Below, in pieces: positions 13,096 through 63,328 of a stretch of 64,000 nucleotides of DNA (the stretch's first letter is position 1; the number at the start of each line of letters is the position of its first letter). Position numbers and translations under genes: made by a program. A model generated the notes under the pieces. It did no database searches. It was not told the DNA's origin and was given only the letters and a program-made list of their open reading frames with translations. The DNA is from Ectopseudomonas mendocina (GTDB lineage: Bacteria; Pseudomonadota; Gammaproteobacteria; Pseudomonadales; Pseudomonadaceae), in the NCBI RefSeq assembly GCF_007049795.1, contig NZ_SCFY01000007.1, forward strand, positions 124,001-188,000, read 5' to 3'.

Positions 13096-14205
13096 ATGAG
13101 CGAACCCCTTACCCCCGAACAACTGCGCAGCCTGACGCCGCTCAACGCGCTTTCCGCGCAGCAGTGGCGCGAGTTGCGTAGCCAGTTGGTACCGCAGCCG
13201 CTGTTGGCCGGGCAACTGCTGTTTCGTCAGGGGGATCAGGCGCGCCTGACCTGCTATCTGCTGGCCGGCGAGTTGCAGCTGCAGGATGCCGCGGGCAGGA
13301 CGCAGACGTTGCAGGCCGGCAGCGAGATCAGCTGTCACCCGGTGTCACCCAGCCTGCCACGGTTGCATGACGCTCGCGCCTTGACCGATATCAGCGTGCT
13401 GATGATCGACAGTGCCACGCTCGATCGCCTGTTGACCTGGCGTCTGGCGCATCAGGATCTGTTACTGGCATTGCAACACAGTGGCGCCGATATCGAATGG
13501 CTGGAGCGACTGCTGGAAAACCCGCTATTTGCCAAGGTACCGCCAGCCAACGTGCAGAACATGCTAGCGCGGCTACAGAGGGTCGAGCTGGCTGCTGGCA
13601 GTCAGGTGCTTGAAGAAGGCGCTACCGGCGATTGTTGCTACTTCCTGGAAAGTGGCCGCGCCGAGGTGATTCGCGGCGCCGGCAGTGATCACCAGGTGCT
13701 GGCGGAGCTGGAGGTGGGCGCCTGTTTCGGTGAAGAAGCGCTGCTTGCTGATCGGCCACGCAACGCCACGGTGACCATGGTCGAGGCGGGCAGTGTGTTG
13801 CGCCTGGATCGCCAGGATTTCTTTGCTTTGCTCAAGGCTCCAGTCGTGGCCGAGGTGTCGCTGGGCGAGGGCGCCAGGTTGCTGACGCAGGGCGCGCAGT
13901 GGCTGGATGTGCGTCTGCAGGAAGAGTACGAGAAGGCGCACGCGCCGCAAGCGCTGCACATGCCGCTGCAGCTGTTGCGCCTCAAGGCGCGCCTGCTGGA
14001 TCGCTCACGTACCTACCTGTGCTATTGCGATAGCGGCAAGCGCAGTAGCAGTGCAGTGTTTCTGCTCTCGCAACTGGGTTACAGCGTTTATGCCTTGCGC
14101 GGAGGCCTGGACGTCCTGCCGGCGGTGCAGCGTGATGCGCTGCTCTGTGAAAGCGGCGCAGGGTATCTGGCTCGTTCCGGTGGGCGTACCGAGCGTAGCC
14201 GTTGA
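13096..14205 (+). CDS. Two cyclic-nucleotide-binding-like domains fused to a rhodanese domain
   Basis: 369 residues from ATG 13096. Residues ~15-135 and ~140-270 are two CNMP/CRP-type beta-barrel domains. The second has the better preserved signature (GATGDCCYFLESGRAEVI, GACFGEEALLADRPRNATV, including the FGE-x-x-L-x5-R-x-A-T phosphate-binding cassette). Residues ~280-350 form a rhodanese domain with active-site loop CDSGKRSS, so Cys311 is a candidate persulfide carrier. No DNA-binding HTH is present, which separates it from CRP-type regulators. It may couple a nucleotide signal to sulfur transfer or thiol chemistry (inference). It lies 22 bp after the PLP enzyme. Confidence 0.85.
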   Translation: MSEPLTPEQLRSLTPLNALSAQQWRELRSQLVPQPLLAGQLLFRQGDQARLTCYLLAGELQLQDAAGRTQTLQAGSEISCHPVSPSLPRLHDARALTDISVLMIDSATLDRLLTWRLAHQDLLLALQHSGADIEWLERLLENPLFAKVPPANVQNMLARLQRVELAAGSQVLEEGATGDCCYFLESGRAEVIRGAGSDHQVLAELEVGACFGEEALLADRPRNATVTMVEAGSVLRLDRQDFFALLKAPVVAEVSLGEGARLLTQGAQWLDVRLQEEYEKAHAPQALHMPLQLLRLKARLLDRSRTYLCYCDSGKRSSSAVFLLSQLGYSVYALRGGLDVLPAVQRDALLCESGAGYLARSGGRTERSR

Positions 14206-14259
14206 TTGGCGCTGGCCCTGCGGTCTATCAACGAGGTGGGTGACGCCCGCGGATTGCCG

Positions 14260-14289
14260 GTAGCAGCATCCCGGATTGCATCGGGCTAC
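14260..14289. repeat. Degenerate REP-like palindrome
   Basis: GTAGCAGCATCCCGGATTGC followed by ATCGGGCTAC; one half resembles the TAGCCCGGATGCA element seen at 46700. It separates the convergent rhodanese and DUF1853 genes. Confidence 0.4.
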
Positions 14290-15230
14290 GACTGCGCCGG
14301 CCACTGATCGTTGACCAGAAACACCCGTTCGACCTCTCGCCAGTTCCCGGCGTGATCTTCCTCCAGGCGCACCAGCAACTGCGCCTGAGCGTCCGGTCGT
14401 AACAGCTTCAGCCATTGCTGGAAGGTGTCTGCGGGCCAGGCCTCGCCAGTCTTTATCAGCGCCGGTGCGAGCCAGGCCAATCGCGGCAAGGGTTGCCAGC
14501 GAGCGTCTGGTTTGGTCGCGGCGAAAGCATCCCAGTCGCACTGGTATAGCCAATTGCCCCGGCAGTGCTCGGGGCCCGCGCCGCGAGGTGATGGGCAACC
14601 ATCAGGCCAGGGGTAGAACAAGTAGCCGCCGAGCCAGAAGGCGGACCGAGTATCGCCCAACTGCAGCTCCTTCAAGGTCGCGCGTGCCTCGCGGCGCGAC
14701 GACAGGGGCAACTGGTGCTGCGCGAGGTGACCGAGTTTCAGGTCAAGCCGATCATGGCTGCCGGGGCCGAGCCAGTCCGCCGCGTCGCTACCGCGCGTGC
14801 CCAGGTAGAACTTCACCGCCAGCTCCAGGTGATGCTCGCCTTCCGCGTCGCGCAATAGCAGGTCCAACTCGCCCAGTGTCTGGCCGTTCTGGCGGATCGG
14901 CAGGTTGGCTGCGACCACCTCTACATCCGGCGCCGCGTGCAGGGCGAACTGCCACAGGCGTTCGTAATAGAGGCCGAGGCGGCGCACCGGTTTCGTGGCC
15001 AGCCAGGCATGCAGGGCACCGGCATCGTTGTCCTGCTGCACGAGCCAGTCAGTCAGCCGCTGCGGTTGCTGCGTCCAGCAACTGGCCTGTAGCGGATGAC
15101 GCTGGACTTTCGTGGTCTCACCGAGCATGGGTGGCGAGAGCAGCGTCCACGCCAGGTCGCGCACGGCAGGGGTATGCAGGCTTTGCAGCGGGTCATGCAT
15201 CAGGTCAGGGGCGCTCATGATCTCGAGCAT
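14286..15230 (-). CDS. DUF1853 family protein
   Basis: 314 residues (302 if the second ATG at 15218, MSAPDLMHDPLQSLHTP, is used; neither start has a strong ribosome site). Matches the DUF1853 family, known only as conserved in proteobacteria. The central stretch GELDLLLRDAEGEHHLELAV followed by KFYL has the spacing of a PD-(D/E)xK nuclease core (Asp in the first strand, then E-x-x-x-K). No biochemistry is known to me. It is transcribed divergently from nadK across an 85-bp gap. Confidence 0.8.
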   Translation of the reverse strand: MLEIMSAPDLMHDPLQSLHTPAVRDLAWTLLSPPMLGETTKVQRHPLQASCWTQQPQRLTDWLVQQDNDAGALHAWLATKPVRRLGLYYERLWQFALHAAPDVEVVAANLPIRQNGQTLGELDLLLRDAEGEHHLELAVKFYLGTRGSDAADWLGPGSHDRLDLKLGHLAQHQLPLSSRREARATLKELQLGDTRSAFWLGGYLFYPWPDGCPSPRGAGPEHCRGNWLYQCDWDAFAATKPDARWQPLPRLAWLAPALIKTGEAWPADTFQQWLKLLRPDAQAQLLVRLEEDHAGNWREVERVFLVNDQWPAQS

Positions 15231-15315
15231 AGCGCAGCAACAGCAGTGGTTTGCTGCGGCCCCGGCGTTTGGCCGATAATCTCTCTTCGTTTCTTATCTG
15301 TCTGGCGGGAGTCCC

Positions 15316-16203
15316 ATGGAGCAATTTCGCAATGTCGGCATCATCGGGCGCCTGGGTAGCACGCGGGTGCTGGAAACCGTGCGGCGACTCAAGCGCTTTC
15401 TGATCGACCGCCACCTGCATGTGATCCTCGAGGACACCATCGCCGACCTGCTGCCGGGACACGGCCTGCAAACCTCCTCACGCAAGATGCTTGGCGAGGT
15501 CTGCGACCTGGTGATCGTCGTCGGTGGCGACGGCAGTATGCTCGGCGCAGCCCGCGCCCTGGCACGGCACAAGGTGCCGGTGCTGGGGATCAACCGTGGC
15601 AGTCTGGGTTTTCTCACCGATATTCGCCCTGATGAGCTTGAGCTCAAGGTGGCGCAGGTGCTCGAAGGCCAGTACCTGACCGAGAATCGCTTCTTGCTCG
15701 AAGCCGAGGTGCGTCGTCAGGGCGAGGCCATCGGCCAGGGCGACGCGCTCAACGACGTGGTGCTGCACCCCGGCAAGTCGACGCGGATGATCGAGTTCGA
15801 GCTGTATATCGACGGTCAATTCGTTTGCAGCCAGAAGGCCGACGGCCTGATCGTCGCCACGCCCACGGGTTCTACCGCCTATGCGCTGTCTGCTGGCGGG
15901 CCGATCATGCATCCCAAACTCGATGCCATCGTGGTGGTGCCGATGTACCCGCATACGCTGTCCAGCCGGCCCATCGTGGTCGACGGCAATAGCGAGCTGA
16001 AGGTGGTGGTGTCGGCGGACATGACCATCTATCCGCAGGTGTCCTGCGACGGCCAGAACCACTTCACCTGTGCCCCGGGCGACACCCTGCACGTGGCCAA
16101 GAAAGCGCAGAAACTGCGCCTGATCCATCCGCTGGATCATAACTACTACGAGGTTTGCCGTACCAAGCTAGGCTGGGGCAGTCGCCTGGGAGGGCAGGAC
16201 TGA
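15316..16203 (+). CDS. nadK: NAD kinase
   Basis: 295 residues, the usual length. Phosphorylates NAD to NADP with ATP. VVGGDGSML near residue 70 is the GGDG motif, NRGSLGFLTDI the NE/D-type loop, and ADGLIVATPTGSTAYALSAG the substrate-binding signature. ATG 15316 follows GCGGGAGTCCC. The next gene starts on the base after its stop, so nadK heads an operon with the phosphatase and rhomboid genes. Confidence 0.97.
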   Translation: MEQFRNVGIIGRLGSTRVLETVRRLKRFLIDRHLHVILEDTIADLLPGHGLQTSSRKMLGEVCDLVIVVGGDGSMLGAARALARHKVPVLGINRGSLGFLTDIRPDELELKVAQVLEGQYLTENRFLLEAEVRRQGEAIGQGDALNDVVLHPGKSTRMIEFELYIDGQFVCSQKADGLIVATPTGSTAYALSAGGPIMHPKLDAIVVVPMYPHTLSSRPIVVDGNSELKVVVSADMTIYPQVSCDGQNHFTCAPGDTLHVAKKAQKLRLIHPLDHNYYEVCRTKLGWGSRLGGQD

Positions 16204-54403: not shown

Positions 54404-54493
54404 GGGAAGATGCCGGAGTGGTCGAACGGGACGGATTCGAAATCCGTTGTGTCAGCAATGGCACCTAGGGTTCAAATCCCTATCTTCCCGCCA
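54404..54493 (+). tRNA. tRNA-Ser (anticodon CGA), island attachment gene
   Basis: 90 nt with CCA. Acceptor GGGAAGA pairs with TCTTCCC, the anticodon arm ACGGA-TTCGAAA-TCCGT shows CGA, a variable arm typical of class II tRNA follows, and the T loop is GGTTCAAATCC. An integrase gene faces its 3' end 120 bp away, so its 3' part is the probable attachment core. Confidence 0.96.
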
Positions 54494-54613: not shown

Positions 54614-55915
54614 CTATACACCGCTCCAATCCTCCCCAAATCCCATTTGCTCAGACACCTGGTGGGCCATTCGCTTGGTGTCAGACGGGATCAGCTTTGC
54701 ATAGTGTTTCTTAATCATGGTCGTGTCGGCATGGCCCAGCTGTTTGGCCAGCCACTCCAGCGTCACGTGGCTTGATAGGGCCTGGCTGGCAAACGTATGC
54801 CGGCACTGGTTGATACCGCGATGGTTCACCTTGGACTTGACCAGGTGCTCCTTGAACCACTCATCCAGGCGGTCAGGGTGCCACGCATTACCCGTCGTCC
54901 AGTCCCGGAACAGGAAGGTGACGCTCTCAGGCTCACTGGTCAGGTTATCGCGCTGGGTGACATCAATCTGCTGCGGTTGGCAGGTGACGGTGTCCTCCAG
55001 GACGAGCGCCATCAATTCCGCAGCTGGCTTGATCAGCTCAACAAAGCGCTCACGCGATTCTTCTTTGGGCACTCGGTAAATGCCATCCACATAGGCGCGG
55101 CGCACATGGATTAGCTTGTTGTCCAGATCCACGTCCTCACGAGCCAGTCCCATCATCTCAGAGCGTGAGAGGCCGGCCCAGCAGTTCATCACCACCACAC
55201 GGGCCTCACGCAGCCTCAGGGGATCTGCATGCTGGATCCGTTTGATTTCTTCGCGGGTGAACGGGTCTGCCAGGCTTTTGTATTTCACCTTGTGGTTCTG
55301 GATCCCCTCCATGTGATTGGTCGTAATCAGTTGGTTTGATTTGGCGTCAGCCCATACCCCCCGAACCACGGTCAAAACGTCGTTAACCGTCTTAGGCGAA
55401 AGCCCCTTTGAGCCGTCCAAGGGTTTCACCAGGTGGTTACGGAACAACTTGAGTTCTTGAATCGTGACTTCGTTGATAGCGGTGTCGCCGAAGTAGCGAA
55501 TCACATGGCCTGCTTTGCACTTGTAATTGAGGTATGTGGTCGATGCCAACCCGCTTTGTGCCACGCGCAGCCAGAGCAGGACGCCCTCTTTGACGGTCAT
55601 GCAATCGGACGTGGGGGCAGGGGGCGTCGCAACTGGTGCCGTAATAGCAGGTTGGACAGGAAGAGGACTTTCCACCTGATCAACCACCACGGCTTTAGTC
55701 ACTTTGACGGAATCCGGAAATCGGCGTTGGTAGTCAAAGACGCCCCGCTTGATTTCGTCGACCACCAATTCGCGGATGCTTTTGGCGTACGCGATGGTCT
55801 TCTCATTCACCGGCATGTCGCGGATCACTTCGCGACAGCGCTTGCCGTTGAGCATGAAGTTGATGCGGACTTTGCCGTTGTGGATTTCAACCCCTGTGGG
55901 CATCTTCATGTTCAT
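54614..55915 (-). CDS. int: Tyrosine recombinase (site-specific integrase)
   Basis: 433 residues from ATG 55915 (AGGAGC ahead of it, overlapping the xis stop as ATGA). N-terminal arm-binding domain of the DUF3596 type (PTGVEIHNGKVRINFMLNGK), a core-binding domain ~130-220 (SGLASTTYLNYKCKAGHVIR), and the catalytic domain: Arg in NCWAGLSRSEMMGL, Lys in VPKEESRERF, Arg in NQCRHTFASQAL (the usual first His of HxxR is Asn), His in AKQLGHADT and nucleophile Tyr in IKKHYAKLI. It integrates the island at tRNA-Ser(CGA). Confidence 0.93.
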   Translation of the reverse strand: MNMKMPTGVEIHNGKVRINFMLNGKRCREVIRDMPVNEKTIAYAKSIRELVVDEIKRGVFDYQRRFPDSVKVTKAVVVDQVESPLPVQPAITAPVATPPAPTSDCMTVKEGVLLWLRVAQSGLASTTYLNYKCKAGHVIRYFGDTAINEVTIQELKLFRNHLVKPLDGSKGLSPKTVNDVLTVVRGVWADAKSNQLITTNHMEGIQNHKVKYKSLADPFTREEIKRIQHADPLRLREARVVVMNCWAGLSRSEMMGLAREDVDLDNKLIHVRRAYVDGIYRVPKEESRERFVELIKPAAELMALVLEDTVTCQPQQIDVTQRDNLTSEPESVTFLFRDWTTGNAWHPDRLDEWFKEHLVKSKVNHRGINQCRHTFASQALSSHVTLEWLAKQLGHADTTMIKKHYAKLIPSDTKRMAHQVSEQMGFGEDWSGV

Positions 55916-56169
55916 AGCGCTCCTGACATCCATTTTTCGATGGCATCGCGGTTGTAGATGACGCGATTCGCGGGGTCTCGATCCCAGTGCTTACCTTCGT
56001 GCCATTGGCCGCTTCCTCGGTACTTTCGAGCAGCCTCAGGACTGATACCGAAGACAGGGAACAGGAGCTCTTGCCTGACCCACTTGGCGGGGACAATCGC
56101 GAATAACTGCTTAATGCTTGGTGGTTGGATGATGTCGTTGTCGGTGGGTTGTTTCGCTGTTGCTGTCAC
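55912..56169 (-). CDS. xis: Excisionase-family protein
   Basis: 85 residues from GTG 56169, with AGGAGA 8 nt upstream. Conserved excisionase-type sequence: PAKWVRQELLFPVFGISPEA followed by RKYRGSGQW, EGKHWDRDPANRVIYNRDAI and EKWMSG. It is a small winged-helix-like DNA binder that directs excision. Its stop overlaps the integrase start by 4 nt, and a 20-bp palindromic operator lies 26 bp upstream. Confidence 0.85.
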   Translation of the reverse strand: MTATAKQPTDNDIIQPPSIKQLFAIVPAKWVRQELLFPVFGISPEAARKYRGSGQWHEGKHWDRDPANRVIYNRDAIEKWMSGAL

Positions 56170-56241: not shown

Positions 56242-57294
56242 CTAAGCCATGGCACGGCGCGCTCTCACTAGTCCCATGACGGTACCGACGGTCACTGTGT
56301 TCTCGTCTAGGCGGAGCATCTTTTCGGGGTACTTGGGGTTAAAGATTTCTAGGTACTTTGCGCTTGGTGTCTGGCATAGACGTCCAAAATCAGTAATGTC
56401 CCCGGCGTTCCGAACCACGACATCATCGTTATTGTTGGGCGTGACTGTGGGATCCACCAGGATCAGGTCGCCTACGAGGTAATGAGGCTCCATCTGATCA
56501 AAGCAGACCCTCATCCAAAAGGCGTGGGGGCTATGTTCAAAGGGGCTCAAGAACCAGTCTTTGTCTTGATGTTTTAGGTGGGCTTCGAGCGGTGTGCTCA
56601 GCGCTTCGTTCTCCCAGGAGATGATGGGCAATTTTCGCGCCGGGGGAGGGGTCGGTATACCGGCCTGCGTCTCTGGCTCATCCTCGACAACTGGTGCCAT
56701 TTTGGCGCGGCTGATCAAGCCCAATAAGTGCTGAGGGCCCGTCTCTTCCGCAGGCAAGACTCCCATATCTTTTCGGAAAAAAGCTCCTTTCGCTTGGGCA
56801 AGGTTACCGCCATGGATCAGCCATTCGGGCGTGATATGCAGGGCGTTTGCCAACTCAAGTATCTTCTTGGTGCCCTTATTACGCCCTGTCTCTAAGTTGC
56901 CGATGGTAGCTTGCGAAAGGCCTGACTTTGCGGCCAGTTGGGCTTGCGTCAGCTGGCGTTCTTCACGCAGGAAAGTCAGGCGTTCAGCAAAGCTAGCTAG
57001 CGATTTCTGTGTGGTGATAGCAATGCTTTCACCACTTTCATCCTGTGCAATTGGGCCACCGGTATCAGCAAAGGGGGCAGGGCCCTCTCCGTTGATAAGC
57101 CAGTCAGCAGGCACCTTGAGTGCCTGTGCGAGCTCTACAGCGTTGTGGGAGCTCTTGGACGATCCGCTCTCAAGCAGGGCAACGCTTGACTGGGTAATGC
57201 CGACCAGTCTTGCAAGGTCGCTTTGGGTCAGTTTACGAGCCCTGCGTGCAGTGGCGATCCGGCCACCGAGCGTGTTCGTGTCGAAGGCTTTCAT
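56242..57294 (-). CDS. Phage-type repressor with two tandem HTH domains and a non-catalytic S24-like domain
   Basis: 350 residues from ATG 57294 (AGGAACGAAGCC upstream); longer frames would use TTG and cross the promoter. HTH 1 (~9-68): LTQSDLARLVGITQSSVALL. HTH 2 (~97-160): LTQAQLAAKSGLSQATIGNL. Each HTH is followed by the same phrase (VPADWLINGEG; ITPEWLIHGGN), so the N-terminal half is an internal duplication. After a Pro-rich linker, residues ~230-345 follow the LexA/CI S24 fold (MEPHYLVGDLILVDPT). Where the self-cleaving serine should be, the sequence is FDQMEP (Gln267), and the lysine site reads DFGRL (Gly304). So autocleavage by RecA is not expected and induction must work differently. 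Confidence 0.88.
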   Translation of the reverse strand: MKAFDTNTLGGRIATARRARKLTQSDLARLVGITQSSVALLESGSSKSSHNAVELAQALKVPADWLINGEGPAPFADTGGPIAQDESGESIAITTQKSLASFAERLTFLREERQLTQAQLAAKSGLSQATIGNLETGRNKGTKKILELANALHITPEWLIHGGNLAQAKGAFFRKDMGVLPAEETGPQHLLGLISRAKMAPVVEDEPETQAGIPTPPPARKLPIISWENEALSTPLEAHLKHQDKDWFLSPFEHSPHAFWMRVCFDQMEPHYLVGDLILVDPTVTPNNNDDVVVRNAGDITDFGRLCQTPSAKYLEIFNPKYPEKMLRLDENTVTVGTVMGLVRARRAMA

Positions 57295-57322
57295 TGGCTT
57301 CGTTCCTATTTCAGTTGACTCA

Positions 57323-57351
57323 ATCCTACTCATCATCGATAGCGTTGTCAA
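57323..57351 (-). promoter_or_regulatory. Promoter of the repressor gene
   Basis: On the minus strand TTGACA (57346-57351) and TAGGAT (57323-57328) are 17 bp apart, 29 bp before the repressor start. The -35 box lies inside the palindrome at 57345-57367. Confidence 0.65.
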
Positions 57352-57371
57352 TAAAAGCTATTGACAATAGC
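57345..57371. promoter_or_regulatory. Overlapping operator palindromes in the divergent promoter region
   Basis: TTGTCAATA-aaagc-TATTGACAA (57345-57367) is a perfect inverted repeat, and GCTATTG-a-CAATAGC (57357-57371) is a second one sharing its right arm. They cover the -35 boxes of both divergent promoters. Their half-site differs from the AACAGCA site at 56195 and 57396. Confidence 0.7.
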
Positions 57372-57388
57372 AAGAGAAGCCATATTAT
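57361..57388 (+). promoter_or_regulatory. Strong rightward promoter
   Basis: Consensus TTGACA (57361-57366), 16-bp spacer, TATTAT (57383-57388). Drives the leader ORF and the AcrVA2-like gene. Confidence 0.75.
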
Positions 57389-57435: not shown

Positions 57436-57543
57436 ATGATGAAAAGACTGAATATTGAGCGACAGAGCCTGAAAGCTGGCAGTGCTGGAATGCGAAAGCA
57501 GTTGTCTGTGTTCGTGGCAGTTCAGGAGGTGCAGCATGGCTAA
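57436..57543 (+). CDS. Leader peptide ORF (35 aa) coupled to the AcrVA2-like gene
   Basis: ATG 57436 after GGGGTGGGA opens MMKRLNIERQSLKAGSAGMR and ends with TAA at 57541-57543, overlapping the AcrVA2-like start (57536) by 8 nt. It contains the AGGAGG of the next gene in its coding sequence. It may serve translational coupling; it is basic and shows no known motif. Whether the peptide itself has a function is unknown. Confidence 0.45.
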   Translation: MMKRLNIERQSLKAGSAGMRKQLSVFVAVQEVQHG

Positions 57544-58549
57544 GGTAAGCCCAATGCAGTATCTGAAGAGTATCACTGAGGCCTATCCGGGAATGTCCTC
57601 TTGGGTCAGAACATGCCTCCAAGACAAGGGCAAGGTCGGTGAACCCGATTGGCCAAACTGGTGTTTTATGCCCATGGCAGCTTGGGCGGCATTGCTTCAA
57701 TTGAAGTATGCCGCCTCTGAACCCGTTGAGATGAAGTGGGCGGTTGCGCAAGGTGTTGGCGCGGTCTCTGCCGTAGGTATTTGGCGGTACTCGCAGGGTA
57801 TTTATAGGTATGACACAGACTTGCTTGATGCGCTTGCGGATTCAGATCTCTCGGGTGATCTTCCGTCAGAACTATTCCGTCGGCTGCCAGAATGGTGTGT
57901 CTATATTGAGACCCCGGGGTTGACTTGGCTTGGTACGGCGCTTCATGGATTTTGGGCGCATTTGGAATGGGATTTCAATGACCAGCGTGAAGAGCTCAGG
58001 CTGGTTATGAATACTGACGATGGCCTGTTTACACAGGCACTACACCTTGGCAAATGGTCAATTGAGGAGGCATTGTACAAGGCATTTGAGTTTACGCTGA
58101 GCAATGCCAAGAACAATAACTTGACGACCTTTTTGACCATGGACTTTTTGGTTCAGTTTTCACCACTTGAGGAACTGAAGCCATTAATTTCCATCCTGCT
58201 GTACCTTTGCTCTGACGAGCCCGATTTCGATCCATTGAGAACACCACAACCCAGGCCAAGTAGACCTGCTCTAAAAAAAGGGAAGCGGGGGCAATATATT
58301 TTCACGCCTGATAAACCCAAAGTCTTCCCGGTAGGCGGACGTGTCGGGCCGATGTTACGACAGGCCATCGAATCTGAGGTTACCGGTCGTACAATCAAAA
58401 CACACCTCAGGCGAGGCCATTGGCATGGGTTCTGGAAGGGGCCGCGCTCGGGTGTGCGGAATTTTATTTATCACTGGATTGCGCCTCTGGTTGTCGTGGG
58501 GAGAAAGCAATCCGAGGTGATGGATGCCGAAACATTTGAGTCAAGTTGA
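57536..58549 (+). CDS. AcrVA2-like protein, full length
   Basis: 337 residues from ATG 57536 with a consensus AGGAGG 6 nt upstream. From memory of the 322-residue Moraxella AcrVA2, an anti-CRISPR that blocks Cas12a biogenesis, the blocks match along the whole length: GIWRYSQGIYRYDTDLLDAL (AcrVA2 GAWRNTLGIYQLDEEIIKDC), LPEWCVY at 117-123 (LPDWCVY), GFWAH at 138-142 (GFWAI), LLYLCSDEPDFD at 221-232 (LLWLCVAEPDIT), IFTPDKPKVFPVGGRVG at 255-271 (FVTPSEPFIYQIGERLG), THLRRGHWHGFWKG at 289-302 (PHIRRGHWHGYWQG). Pseudomonads rarely carry Cas12a, so the target may differ. First gene of the rightward operon, followed by a terminator. Confidence 0.85.
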   Translation: MAKVSPMQYLKSITEAYPGMSSWVRTCLQDKGKVGEPDWPNWCFMPMAAWAALLQLKYAASEPVEMKWAVAQGVGAVSAVGIWRYSQGIYRYDTDLLDALADSDLSGDLPSELFRRLPEWCVYIETPGLTWLGTALHGFWAHLEWDFNDQREELRLVMNTDDGLFTQALHLGKWSIEEALYKAFEFTLSNAKNNNLTTFLTMDFLVQFSPLEELKPLISILLYLCSDEPDFDPLRTPQPRPSRPALKKGKRGQYIFTPDKPKVFPVGGRVGPMLRQAIESEVTGRTIKTHLRRGHWHGFWKGPRSGVRNFIYHWIAPLVVVGRKQSEVMDAETFESS

Positions 58550-58576
58550 GTGATGCCGAAAGGGCTGCATGGCTCT

Positions 58577-58614
58577 AAATCCTGGTCACGCTGCGACCAG
58601 GATTTGCTTTTTTT
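58577..58614 (+). terminator. Terminator after the AcrVA2-like gene
   Basis: Perfect 11-bp stem AAATCCTGGTC (58577-58587) / GACCAGGATTT (58595-58605), 7-base loop, then a run of seven T. Confidence 0.92.
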
Positions 58615-59464: not shown

Positions 59465-59872
59465 ATGATGAGTGAGTTAAACAAGATTGCAGCGTTGTTA
59501 CACGGCCCTGGCGAAGTGATGCCTGGCATTCAAATGAGCTGGGAGCAGGCGCGTGCGCGTGTGGAGGCCAGAGGCCGTGCGTCTTGGATGGATTTTTGTG
59601 TAGTCGAGAACTGGAATTGGATTGATCTCACTCTTTCCGCAGAGGCGCAAGAGAAGTTCCGTTCCGCTGGTTTGCAGCCGGTAGTGCTGTATGCACATAA
59701 CGTTTTGTTTGATAGCCGGCGGCGATTTGATGTCGGCGATTGGGTGCGCACCACGCCGTTGGTGAGCTTTAGCGAGGATTGCTTCTTTCAGACGCGTAAC
59801 ACGCTGTACGTGTTGGTCGGAAACGGCCAGCGCAAGCAGGCCGAGTTTGCAACGGTCATGAGCATTTTTTGA
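59465..59872 (+). CDS. Mobile-element protein, DUF6957-like
   Basis: 135 residues, start ATG 59465 after AGCTGGGGTGG. LLHGPGEVMPGIQMSWEQAR, ENWNWIDLTLSAEAQEKF, LYAHNVLFDSRRRFDVGDWV and the end KQAEFATVMSIF are the kind of sequence I recall for DUF6957, a small family common in Pseudomonas prophage and island accessory regions; the exact family number is from memory. No function known. The next gene follows closely and may be coupled (a TTG overlaps the stop). Confidence 0.7.
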   Translation: MMSELNKIAALLHGPGEVMPGIQMSWEQARARVEARGRASWMDFCVVENWNWIDLTLSAEAQEKFRSAGLQPVVLYAHNVLFDSRRRFDVGDWVRTTPLVSFSEDCFFQTRNTLYVLVGNGQRKQAEFATVMSIF

Positions 59873-59880
59873 GTGAAGTT

Positions 59881-60174
59881 ATGGCTACCACCGATCCGTT
59901 ACCCGAGGCGGTGTGCTGCGATCTTTGCGGGAGCGATCTACGCATGCCGGGCTATGGCCAACAGTCTGGGCTGCTGCACGCCAGGTGGGGCTATGGCTCG
60001 CGGCATGACGGTGAGCATTACCGTGTCCAGTTGTGCGAAGCCTGTTTCTTCCAGGTGCTGGCGTACATCCGGCAAGAGCGTCGGGTACAGCGTCTTTTCG
60101 ATGAAGAACCACTGGATGATCAGGATTTTGGGCTGATAACTCGTGGAGATTATTGGGGGGATGTGAGCGGTTAA
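59881..60174 (+). CDS. Small cysteine-rich (putative zinc) island protein
   Basis: 97 residues from ATG 59881; a TTG at 59869 that overlaps the previous stop is an alternative. CCDLCGSDLRMPGYG and VQLCEACFFQVLAYI provide two CxxC pairs suited to zinc, separated by HARWGYGSRHDGEHYRV. Probably a small zinc-ribbon-like protein; no function known. Lies 8 bp after the DUF6957-like gene. Confidence 0.7.
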   Translation: MATTDPLPEAVCCDLCGSDLRMPGYGQQSGLLHARWGYGSRHDGEHYRVQLCEACFFQVLAYIRQERRVQRLFDEEPLDDQDFGLITRGDYWGDVSG

Positions 60175-60213
60175 TAGAGCGGGTTAGATATTTAATGACT
60201 AGGGGTGATAGTT

Positions 60214-60657
60214 ATGTTCAGGGCATCGCGTGACTGGATGGCTAAGAGGGGTGAGATTCTCGAGCCTGAACCAGGGTCTATGTATTTTGCGATGGTTGAG
60301 CTGGAGTTTGCATTGCCGTGGTTTCATTTACGAGTAGAGATTAAGGCAGAAGACGGAGTTTACTACACACAAGTGTTGCCCAGCGGTATTGAAGAGTTTA
60401 AATGTTTCATGAAGTGGGCTGGCCTTGATGAGAGAGCCCTATCCGTTAAAGCTCAGGTTATGCTGCCCATGCATATGACCGGGCGTGATGAATGGACACT
60501 GGAACCCTTAGTAACACTTCATGAGGTCACAGGAGCCGATTTTAAAACCGACTGGTTTTTTACCGTGGCCTCGGGTGCTGTGTTTCGTTATGGGGATGGC
60601 GCAACACTCGCTTTGGAAAATGCGCTGAATCCACTGCTGATCTATCCGCGGTTCTGA
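60214..60657 (+). CDS. Unrecognised island protein
   Basis: 147 residues from ATG 60214, preceded by AGGGGTGA (a GTG three codons earlier is possible but badly spaced). Soluble, no signal or TM, with aromatic-rich stretches (FALPWFHLRVEIKAEDGVYY, DFKTDWFFTVASGAVFRYGD). I do not recognise a family. Same strand as its neighbours, 39 bp after the previous gene. Confidence 0.6.
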   Translation: MFRASRDWMAKRGEILEPEPGSMYFAMVELEFALPWFHLRVEIKAEDGVYYTQVLPSGIEEFKCFMKWAGLDERALSVKAQVMLPMHMTGRDEWTLEPLVTLHEVTGADFKTDWFFTVASGAVFRYGDGATLALENALNPLLIYPRF

Positions 60658-60659
60658 TA

Positions 60660-60925
60660 TCACGTGTTGCCCTGTCCGCTCGGAAGAGGTCGCCGTGGCC
60701 TGGGCCTGGCAGGGTATTGCTCCACTTGTGGTTACGGTTCTACCCGGCTCGCACGCAGGCTTCGATGCCAGCTGAGACTGAAGAATGAGCGCCTGTGCTC
60801 AGTCAGGAGGATGTCGTGATCAACTCGCGTGGTTACCCAGGTGAGGGGCCGCGCTTGGATACAGCGCTGGTCGACCAGCTCGTCGGGATAAAGGTCGTAT
60901 TGTTCACATGGCCTCATCGTCGCAA
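60660..60925 (+). pseudogene. Remnant of a second metallophosphoesterase cassette
   Basis: The leader TCACGTGTTGCCCTGTCCGC at 60660 matches TCACGTGTTGTCCTGTGTGT at 61984, directly upstream of the phosphatase at 62016 (22 of 27 bases over the full block). Downstream, 60816-60872 translates as VINSRGYPGEGPRLDTALVD, matching the end of that phosphatase (VVCNPRGYPGEETGFDPALV). The catalytic middle is gone. The rest of the 428-bp gap to 61085 holds no supported gene. Confidence 0.6.
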
Positions 60926-61085
60926 GAGTTGAGATCCTCACGAAATACGGGGTTAGCCAGTACTTAGAAGCAAGAAGTACTCGGTCTGAATACTAAGAAT
61001 AAATATATAGCGCTCTCAGCATAAGGGCGTTGACTTCGCTCGTTCTCAAGGCGCAATTATATATAAAGCATATAGGGGAAATGCC

Positions 61086-61838
61086 ATGCGCAGAAGCTAC
61101 GAAATCAATTCTAAAAAATGTCACTTCTATGAGGGTGAAAACGAGATTGGTCATGATGTTTCAGACCTTTTCGATCTGCTGAGCATTCCGGTGGAGGCCC
61201 AGGGGGCTGTTCTATATCAATGGAAGGGCAGGATCACAACATACGTGGATGAGGGAAGTGAGGGGGGTGTAGTTTATTTAATTCCAGAGAGTGATTTAAA
61301 GGCGTTCTTAAAGAGTGCCATTGCAGCCAGCACAGAGAAAACCATTGTAAATGCTGCGTCGTTATTTGCAAAAATAACTCAAGAGCGCCTGGACTCAATT
61401 GTAGGGAATGACTCCCCTCAATTATCACACTCAGACCCCGCAGTGCGCAGCGCGATGCTGAAGGCGTCGAGAAATGGGTTTATTAGCTTTTATGATGATA
61501 TGGAGGTTTATGCAAAGAATAAACTATTAAGCCTCGAACAAATTAAGGAGTGGAGTCGAATAAAGAATCTTCTGCCAGATAGAAAGGGGGCTATCAATGA
61601 TCGGCATCTTTACGCGCTGATTATGTTGATCGCTCCAATTTGGCCAGATCCCAAGAATGCCAGACAGTATGCTTTCGACAATAACTACCTGATCATCCAG
61701 ACTATATTGCTTAACGTTTATAAATTTGACGGATTTAGCAAGTCTCAAAAAGCATTAATGCTTCAGGAGGTAGTGCGGCAAATCGGACAGAGAGATCAAG
61801 CGAAAGGAGAGTTAAAGAATGATCAGCCAGAGCCTTGA
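61086..61838 (+). CDS. Unrecognised AT-rich island gene
   Basis: 250 residues from ATG 61086, preceded by AGGGGAAATGCC. Charged, helical, no signal peptide or TM. Blocks such as KCHFYEGENEIGHDVSDLFD, LASIVGND-type loops and DGFSKSQKALMLQEVVRQIG do not match a family I know. GC content is clearly lower than in the flanking core genes, and rare codons such as ATA and AGA are frequent, so it is a recent acquisition. A promoter-like TTGACT near 61031 and TATATA stretch precede it. Confidence 0.65.
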   Translation: MRRSYEINSKKCHFYEGENEIGHDVSDLFDLLSIPVEAQGAVLYQWKGRITTYVDEGSEGGVVYLIPESDLKAFLKSAIAASTEKTIVNAASLFAKITQERLDSIVGNDSPQLSHSDPAVRSAMLKASRNGFISFYDDMEVYAKNKLLSLEQIKEWSRIKNLLPDRKGAINDRHLYALIMLIAPIWPDPKNARQYAFDNNYLIIQTILLNVYKFDGFSKSQKALMLQEVVRQIGQRDQAKGELKNDQPEP

Positions 61839-62015
61839 TGGCTCCGGGTTAGACGCCAACGATTAAATAATCAGGTCAATTTCAAGCGGCTCTCTGTTGT
61901 CACGCTCGGAATGAGCGGCTGGCTTGAGGTGCTCGGAAATAACCGATCATCCTTTCAAGACTGATTGATTTTCGACACTGATTTCACGTGTTGTCCTGTG
62001 TGTTCGGGAGCCGTC

Positions 62016-62753
62016 ATGCATATTCACGTACTGTCAGATTTGCACTTGGAATTTAGCCCCTTTGCGCCTCAGGTCACGGCAGCTGATGTGGTCATTCTGG
62101 CCGGTGATATTCATGTCAAAGGCCGTGGTGTTCCTTGGGCCAGGCAAGCCTTTGAGGGGCCTGTGTTGTATGTGCCGGGTAACCACGAGTTTTACGGCGG
62201 CCACCTTTCTCACACGCTGGCTTCGATGCGTGCTGAGGCTGATACGCGAGTGCGTGTGCTCGAACGGGATGACGTGGTGATCAACGGTACGCGCTTTCTG
62301 GGCTGCACGCTGTGGACGGACTTTACGGCCAAGGGTAGTGCTCATCTGGCGGCATTACAGGCTCACGCTGAGATGAACGACTTTCGAAAGATTCGCACCA
62401 GGGCCTATCAACGCATCGTTCCGAATGACCTGGTGCAAGAGTGCCTCAATTCTCTTCAGTGGCTGCGCCTGAAGCTGGCGGAGCCTTTCGTGGGTAAGAC
62501 GGTGGTCATCACCCACCATGCGCCATCGCTTCGCTCGCTAGCCGATAACCCGCATGCGGGGAACCTGCTCGATGCGGCCTATGCCACCAATTGTGAAACG
62601 TTGATGGGGGCGGAGCGCGTCGTGTTGTGGATCCATGGGCATTCGCACTGCGCTGTGGATTACAAGATTGCCGGCACACGAGTTGTCTGCAATCCGCGAG
62701 GTTATCCAGGTGAGGAGACTGGCTTTGATCCAGCACTGGTGTTGACGCTATGA
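62016..62753 (+). CDS. Calcineurin-like metallophosphoesterase of the island
   Basis: 245 residues from ATG 62016 (CGGGAGCCGTC). All metal-binding motifs are present: SDLHLEF at the start, GDIHVKG ~32, GNHEFYGG ~55, ITHHAPS ~170 and IHGHSHCAVDY ~213. This YfcE/MPE-like type hydrolyses phosphodiesters or phosphomonoesters; the substrate is unknown and could be a nucleotide. Stop overlaps the next start (ATGA at 62750-62753), so it is made together with the half-length AcrVA2-like protein. Confidence 0.9.
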   Translation: MHIHVLSDLHLEFSPFAPQVTAADVVILAGDIHVKGRGVPWARQAFEGPVLYVPGNHEFYGGHLSHTLASMRAEADTRVRVLERDDVVINGTRFLGCTLWTDFTAKGSAHLAALQAHAEMNDFRKIRTRAYQRIVPNDLVQECLNSLQWLRLKLAEPFVGKTVVITHHAPSLRSLADNPHAGNLLDAAYATNCETLMGAERVVLWIHGHSHCAVDYKIAGTRVVCNPRGYPGEETGFDPALVLTL

Positions 62754-63328
62754 GCTGGGCGAGGTTGTCACCCGCCGAGCGGGAGAAACTAGCCTGCGCG
62801 ATGAAAATGGACTTTGGGCGTCCTGTTACGGCGTATCTGACCAATGCGATGTTTGTGGCAGTTGACGAGCTGATGCACAAGGCTATGGGGATGATGAACG
62901 GAGAGCTTAATGCTCAATACTCTAACTTCACGGAGGGTTCTGCTCGGAGGAATTTCCAAGAGTTGAGATCATTGATCTCTATCGTTTTGTATCTGTGTTC
63001 ATCGGAGCCCGATATTGATCCGGCTCGCATGCCGAATTCTACAACCAGAGAATTGCCTTTTCGCAAAGGTAAGAAGGGTAACTATCTGTTCACGCCTGAT
63101 AAGCCAAGAGTCTTCCGCGTCGGGGGTACACTAGGAGAAAAGTTAAGAGGAGCGGCAGTTCAAGCGACCAGGAAAACTGTAAAAACCCATTTAAGGCGAG
63201 CGCACTGGCATGGCTTCTGGAAAGGGCCTCGCTCAGGTGAGCGGACGTTCTTCTATCGCTGGATTCCTCCTCTTGTCATTGAGGGTAAGATCTTGCCAGA
63301 GGCGGTTCTGGATGAGTCAGTGGTGTAA
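62750..63328 (+). CDS. Half-length AcrVA2-like protein (C-terminal half only)
   Basis: 192 residues. From about residue 28 it aligns with residues ~170-325 of the full-length protein at 57536: LISIVLYLCSSEPDID vs LISILLYLCSDEPDFD; LFTPDKPRVFRVGG vs IFTPDKPKVFPVGG; KTHLRRAHWHGFWKGPRSG vs KTHLRRGHWHGFWKGPRSG; then YRWIPPLVIEG vs YHWIAPLVVVG. The N-terminal half with LPEWCVY is absent, and the first ~27 residues (MSWARLSPAEREKLACAMKM) are unrelated. It has its own start coupled to the phosphatase, so it looks like a real separate protein rather than a broken copy. Confidence 0.8.
   Translation: MSWARLSPAEREKLACAMKMDFGRPVTAYLTNAMFVAVDELMHKAMGMMNGELNAQYSNFTEGSARRNFQELRSLISIVLYLCSSEPDIDPARMPNSTTRELPFRKGKKGNYLFTPDKPRVFRVGGTLGEKLRGAAVQATRKTVKTHLRRAHWHGFWKGPRSGERTFFYRWIPPLVIEGKILPEAVLDESVV

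Follow-up and report, generated by a model that had tools for sequence, protein, structure and literature searches.

An AcrVA2/FinQ-family gene paired with a divergent repressor in a tRNA-Ser integrative element of Ectopseudomonas mendocina

The window analyzed here, a 64,000-nucleotide stretch of an Ectopseudomonas mendocina genome, contains one end of an integrative element inserted at a tRNA-Ser gene. This element carries gene A, which encodes a 337-residue protein of the AcrVA2/FinQ family and lies divergent from a gene for a CI/LexA-like repressor (Table 1).

Family membership of gene A

Sequence comparison and structure prediction make it as good as certain that gene A is a full-length member of the AcrVA2/FinQ family. 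The protein matches AcrVA2 in a phmmer comparison (E 2.1e-20), the profile A1 matches the AcrVA2 structure 7CI1 with E 5.9e-43 over residues 3–321 of 323, and the predicted structure of the gene A protein has the AcrVA2 fold. The original prediction of a full-length AcrVA2 homolog was thereby confirmed by the profile and structure comparisons it had called for, with a significant match along the whole protein and not to a short generic motif. Gene A also matches FinQ (E 3e-18 pairwise), with homology and predicted fold common to both, and FinQ in turn matches 7CI1 (E 3.8e-17). The identity of gene A to AcrVA2 and to FinQ is about 20–25% each.

Residues W83, R84, P118, G138, Y223, G267 and W314 are invariant across 50 aligned family sequences, a signature that gene A carries, and H290, R292, R293, H295, W296 and H297 are nearly invariant in the same set; AcrVA2 itself was outside this alignment and has W at the Y223 position. 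The core common to AcrVA2, FinQ and gene A consists of W83-R84, P118, G138, G267, W314 and a C-terminal HxRRGHWHxxWxG block, outside which the three sequences vary widely. This is the pattern that one machinery serving several targets would be expected to show. Phylogenetic analysis placed gene A within a clade of eight sequences (support 99/100), separate from both AcrVA2 of Moraxella and Shewanella (two sequences, 100/100) and FinQ (four sequences, 100/100), in a tree whose deeper branches are weakly resolved and which has several long end branches. Comparison of gene A with its P. yangonensis homolog (77% identical; dN 0.144, dS 0.620, ratio 0.23) shows that the gene is constrained, under purifying selection. 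The Swiss-Prot FinQ entry (FINQ_ECOLX, P0126) departs from current FinQ records (P0122) precisely where the conserved HIRRGHWHTYWTG block lies, a difference that may explain why the kinship with AcrVA2 was easily overlooked.

Distribution of the family and of Cas12a

A search space of 5.8 billion proteins yielded 3,944 candidates, and 981 relatives of gene A were found at E <= 1e-3. The best 120 of these 981, down to 40% identity, all carry a precomputed PF26125 label, whereas the gene A protein had no hit in a Pfam copy that lacks this profile. Those of the 120 that bear a source name are called either "hypothetical protein" or "AcrVA2 family anti-CRISPR protein", the latter including a 56% identical Pseudomonas relative. 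Since UniRef applies the same AcrVA2 name to a Kosakonia FinQ, the name says little. As a functional label for gene A, "anti-CRISPR" is doubtful. Among 72,556 plasmid records, 243 hold relatives, 204 of them from Acinetobacter, and relatives also occur in 57 of 50,697 phage records (37 from Erwinia). Large Erwinia and Dickeya phages (about 235–275 kb) harbor diverged family members that, among the entries listed, are mostly annotated as hypothetical. Matches to the gene A protein occur in three of 398 genomes of the genus, host included, one of them partial, while a family profile matches 19 of 398 genomes of the phylum, again with the host, several of these matches being short or interrupted.

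Neither Cas12a (profile TIGR04330) nor Cas1 was detected in the host genome, in a search for type V-A loci that the original prediction had also proposed and whose controls were positive in nine of 14 genomes for Cas1 and in none of 14 for Cas12a. In the order sample, Cas12a matched at E <= 0.001 in four of 390 genomes, two of them over the cut-off, and all four lie outside the host genus. Cas12a was likewise absent from all 31 family carriers (13 genomes with gene A relatives, host included, and 18 further carriers from the phylum sample), with both positive controls (G590 and G684) matched; metagenome-assembled genomes account for five of the ten named carriers, and some of the 18 are less than 85% complete, making single absences soft. 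Moreover, anti-CRISPR genes can sit in hosts that lack their target, so that a type V-A system in the host is not strictly a defining feature of an AcrVA2-type anti-CRISPR. The original prediction had left two readings, one in which the element visits Cas12a-bearing hosts and one in which the family has another nascent-protein or mRNA target. The former finds no support in these counts, and the latter is strengthened by the family membership of FinQ, which inhibits expression of the transfer genes of the F plasmid.

The element and its control region

The mobile-island setting proposed for gene A is borne out by the integrase, the tRNA-Ser attL repeat and two complete related elements, of 35.1 kb in P. 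yangonensis and 50.2 kb in Stutzerimonas kunmingensis, that are bounded by a matching arrangement of tRNA 3'-end repeats. All three elements share the integrase, the excisionase-like protein, the repressor and gene A, together with a TrwC relaxase, but their cargo differs: the window element has a bacteriophage exclusion (BREX) system, that of P. yangonensis a type ISP restriction enzyme, and that of S. kunmingensis a BREX unlike the first. Constant beside changing cargo, gene A is thus part of the backbone within this element type and is not passing cargo. The window integrase is 100% identical to that of the P. yangonensis element and 82% identical to that of the S. kunmingensis element, and identity between the window and P. 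yangonensis elements falls at about position 57300; these two elements therefore have their left end in common through recent recombination or descent. VirB4 (PF03135) had no match in the host genome or the P. yangonensis genome, a weak negative given a control positive in only one of 14 genomes, and S. kunmingensis has a single match on a contig other than that of its element.

The repressor and promoter arrangement of the original prediction also stood at the level of sequence patterns, with a divergent S24 repressor, predicted promoters and a palindrome, the predicted operator, that is retained with one or two changes in both complete relatives. The proposed operon found no support, as a predicted intrinsic terminator starts 26 bases past the gene A stop; gene A is probably a monocistronic unit that would be repressed in the resident state. 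The repressor adjoins the gene A homolog also in G777, G778 and L021. At L021, in another genome of the genus (G082), it lies divergent from a homolog with one inner stop (TAG). With no match to this repressor at six more distant gene A loci, the pairing is a feature of this element type and not of the family. Interrupted family members in several genomes, together with the inner TAG at L021, may point to quick loss after a target disappears.

Table 1. Coordinates of gene A, its predicted control region and other element features in the window
Feature	Position	Strand	Basis or remark
tRNA-Ser(CGA), element integration site	54404..54493	+	ARAGORN
attL, 24-bp direct repeat equal to tRNA 3' end	54470..54493	+	second copy at G000 C24:998-1021, on a different contig
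Tyrosine integrase (Arm-DNA-bind_2 and Phage_integrase)	54614..55933	-	domain matches
Excisionase-like protein (DUF1233)	55912..56169	-	domain match
Repressor, two helix-turn-helix domains and a peptidase S24 domain (CI/LexA-like)	56242..57294	-	domain matches; divergent from gene A
Predicted repressor promoter, TTGACA-17-TAGGAT	57323..57351	-	pattern only
Predicted operator, palindrome TTGTCAATA-N5-TATTGACAA	57345..57367	.	overlaps both -35 boxes
Predicted gene A promoter, TTGACA-16-TATTAT (11 of 12)	57361..57388	+	pattern only
Gene A, AcrVA2/FinQ family protein	57536..58549	+	sequence comparison and predicted fold
Predicted intrinsic terminator 3' of gene A	58576..58606	+	pattern only
B, 192-residue apparent chimera	62750..63328	+	5' end like a sister-element small protein; 3' part formed by the C-terminal half of another AcrVA2/FinQ-type gene

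The family part of B is 44–46% identical to gene A, and the start of B overlaps the stop of a phosphoesterase gene. B appears to be a deletion-derived chimera, which points to a second member of the family having once occupied this locus. Positions 59465–62753 encode a DUF6957 protein, a 101-residue protein and a calcineurin-like phosphoesterase, in an order kept in the BREX-bearing S. kunmingensis element. The BREX system lies downstream on the same contig (L003:18224-19589 and L004:19-13627) and comprises BrxA, BrxB, BrxC, which is cut by the locus border, PglX, split into two open reading frames overlapping by 4 bases, PglZ and BrxL; a HEC-06/SspE-like gene separates PglX from PglZ. Three open reading frames of about 410 residues, alike by eye, lie between B and BREX (L003:10168-11400, 13317-14555 and 14557-15786), and the one of them searched against Pfam gave no match.

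Possible roles of gene A

Both relatives with a described effect are reported to lower transcripts. According to a review (PMC13131331), AcrVA2, known from Moraxella prophages (PDB 7CI1/7CI2), acts during translation, recognizing the N-terminus of nascent Cas12a and bringing about loss of the mRNA, and a meeting report (PMC12908700) adds that tagged Cas9 and Cas12f mRNAs are also degraded. FinQ, the IncI1 fertility inhibitor (FINQ_ECOLX and kin), inhibits expression of the F tra operon, an effect reported as Rho-independent transcription termination. The loss of transcripts common to the two suggests one shared mechanism. An analogy is offered by TTC5 tubulin autoregulation, in which recognition of the nascent chain is linked to decay of the mRNA; PMC10403363 draws this parallel for the Cas12a inhibitor. 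TTC5, however, is a eukaryotic ribosome-binding factor of an unrelated system. Gene A differs from both relatives in its setting. Moraxella acrVA2 is reported in PMC7913775 beside other acr genes, whereas gene A neighbors a CI/S24-type repressor within a relaxase element integrated at a tRNA gene. FinQ, likewise a mobile-element gene, is located beside trbA on conjugative IncI1 plasmids, in contrast to the tRNA-Ser integrative element that holds gene A.

The most likely role, to which we give about an even chance, is that gene A lets its element silence a chosen rival or defense gene through nascent-protein recognition and mRNA loss. Cas12a is probably not the target, as neither the host nor the related carriers searched yielded a match to it. 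The repressor would bind the shared palindrome and keep gene A silent in the resident element, and the gene would fire upon entry into a repressor-free cell or upon cleavage of the S24-type repressor. The protein might then work as reported for AcrVA2, by nascent-chain-dependent mRNA loss, against part of a competing conjugative element, comparable to FinQ and the F tra operon, or against a defense system of the host or a rival.

Several points weigh against this reading. The low identity and separate clade of gene A may make the transfer of an AcrVA2/FinQ mechanism doubtful, and Rho-independent termination by FinQ need not equal nascent-chain-guided decay. No convincing LSKT-like N-terminal motif was found among 33 F-plasmid transfer proteins scanned. 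The repressor was unmatched at six more distant gene A loci (L008, L009, L010, L012, L013 and L014) of the ten compared. Without a VirB4 match in the host, the element may rely on helper conjugation machinery, so that silencing helper genes could hurt it. The carriers, finally, are current residents, some of them incomplete, and a past or passing host may have had Cas12a.

In a different role, gene A would tune the element's own relaxase or the transfer genes of a helper plasmid, the element transferring at the helper's expense. The TrwC relaxase in an element whose host gave no VirB4 match, the kinship with FinQ, and the presence of the repressor next to gene A here, in the two complete relatives and at L021 agree with such fertility control; the six loci without a repressor match and the many carriers elsewhere that are plasmids and phages do not, and we consider it unlikely. 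A true type V-A anti-CRISPR role, lowering Cas12a in hosts that the element visits, appears more improbable still. The resemblance to AcrVA2, along the full length of the sequence and in fold, and the names of some relatives favor it, but the separate clade, the sharing of that name with Kosakonia FinQ and the rarity of Cas12a (none in the host, the 31 carriers or the genus part of the order sample) argue against it. Least probable is that the family shares only a peptide-binding fold and that the gene A product blocks a mature protein by binding to it, the mRNA effect being special to AcrVA2: low identity between the family branches would allow this, but FinQ, the other member with a described effect, is likewise reported to lower transcripts.

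A broader form of the silencing reading is more tentative, and we would give it rather less than an even chance. AcrVA2 and FinQ would be two faces of a widespread family of mobile-element weapons that silence an opponent's mRNA through recognition of its nascent protein product, and the "transcription termination" of F tra by FinQ, described decades ago, would be nascent-chain-guided mRNA decay. Gene A would represent a third kind, directed at a non-CRISPR target such as a conjugation or defense protein and fired by derepression on entry into a new cell.

Under the AcrVA2 label, such genes on plasmids, phages and islands are readily taken for Cas12a inhibitors, although the 31 carriers searched yielded no Cas12a. 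The presence of FinQ in the same family adds a second and older phenotype for these genes, namely the loss of a rival's transfer transcripts, and makes jointly testable the mode of action of FinQ, the mRNA degrader in the AcrVA2 pathway and the role of AcrVA2-type genes outside Cas12a hosts. If members of the family differ in the peptide that they read, programmable mRNA silencers could be drawn from it.
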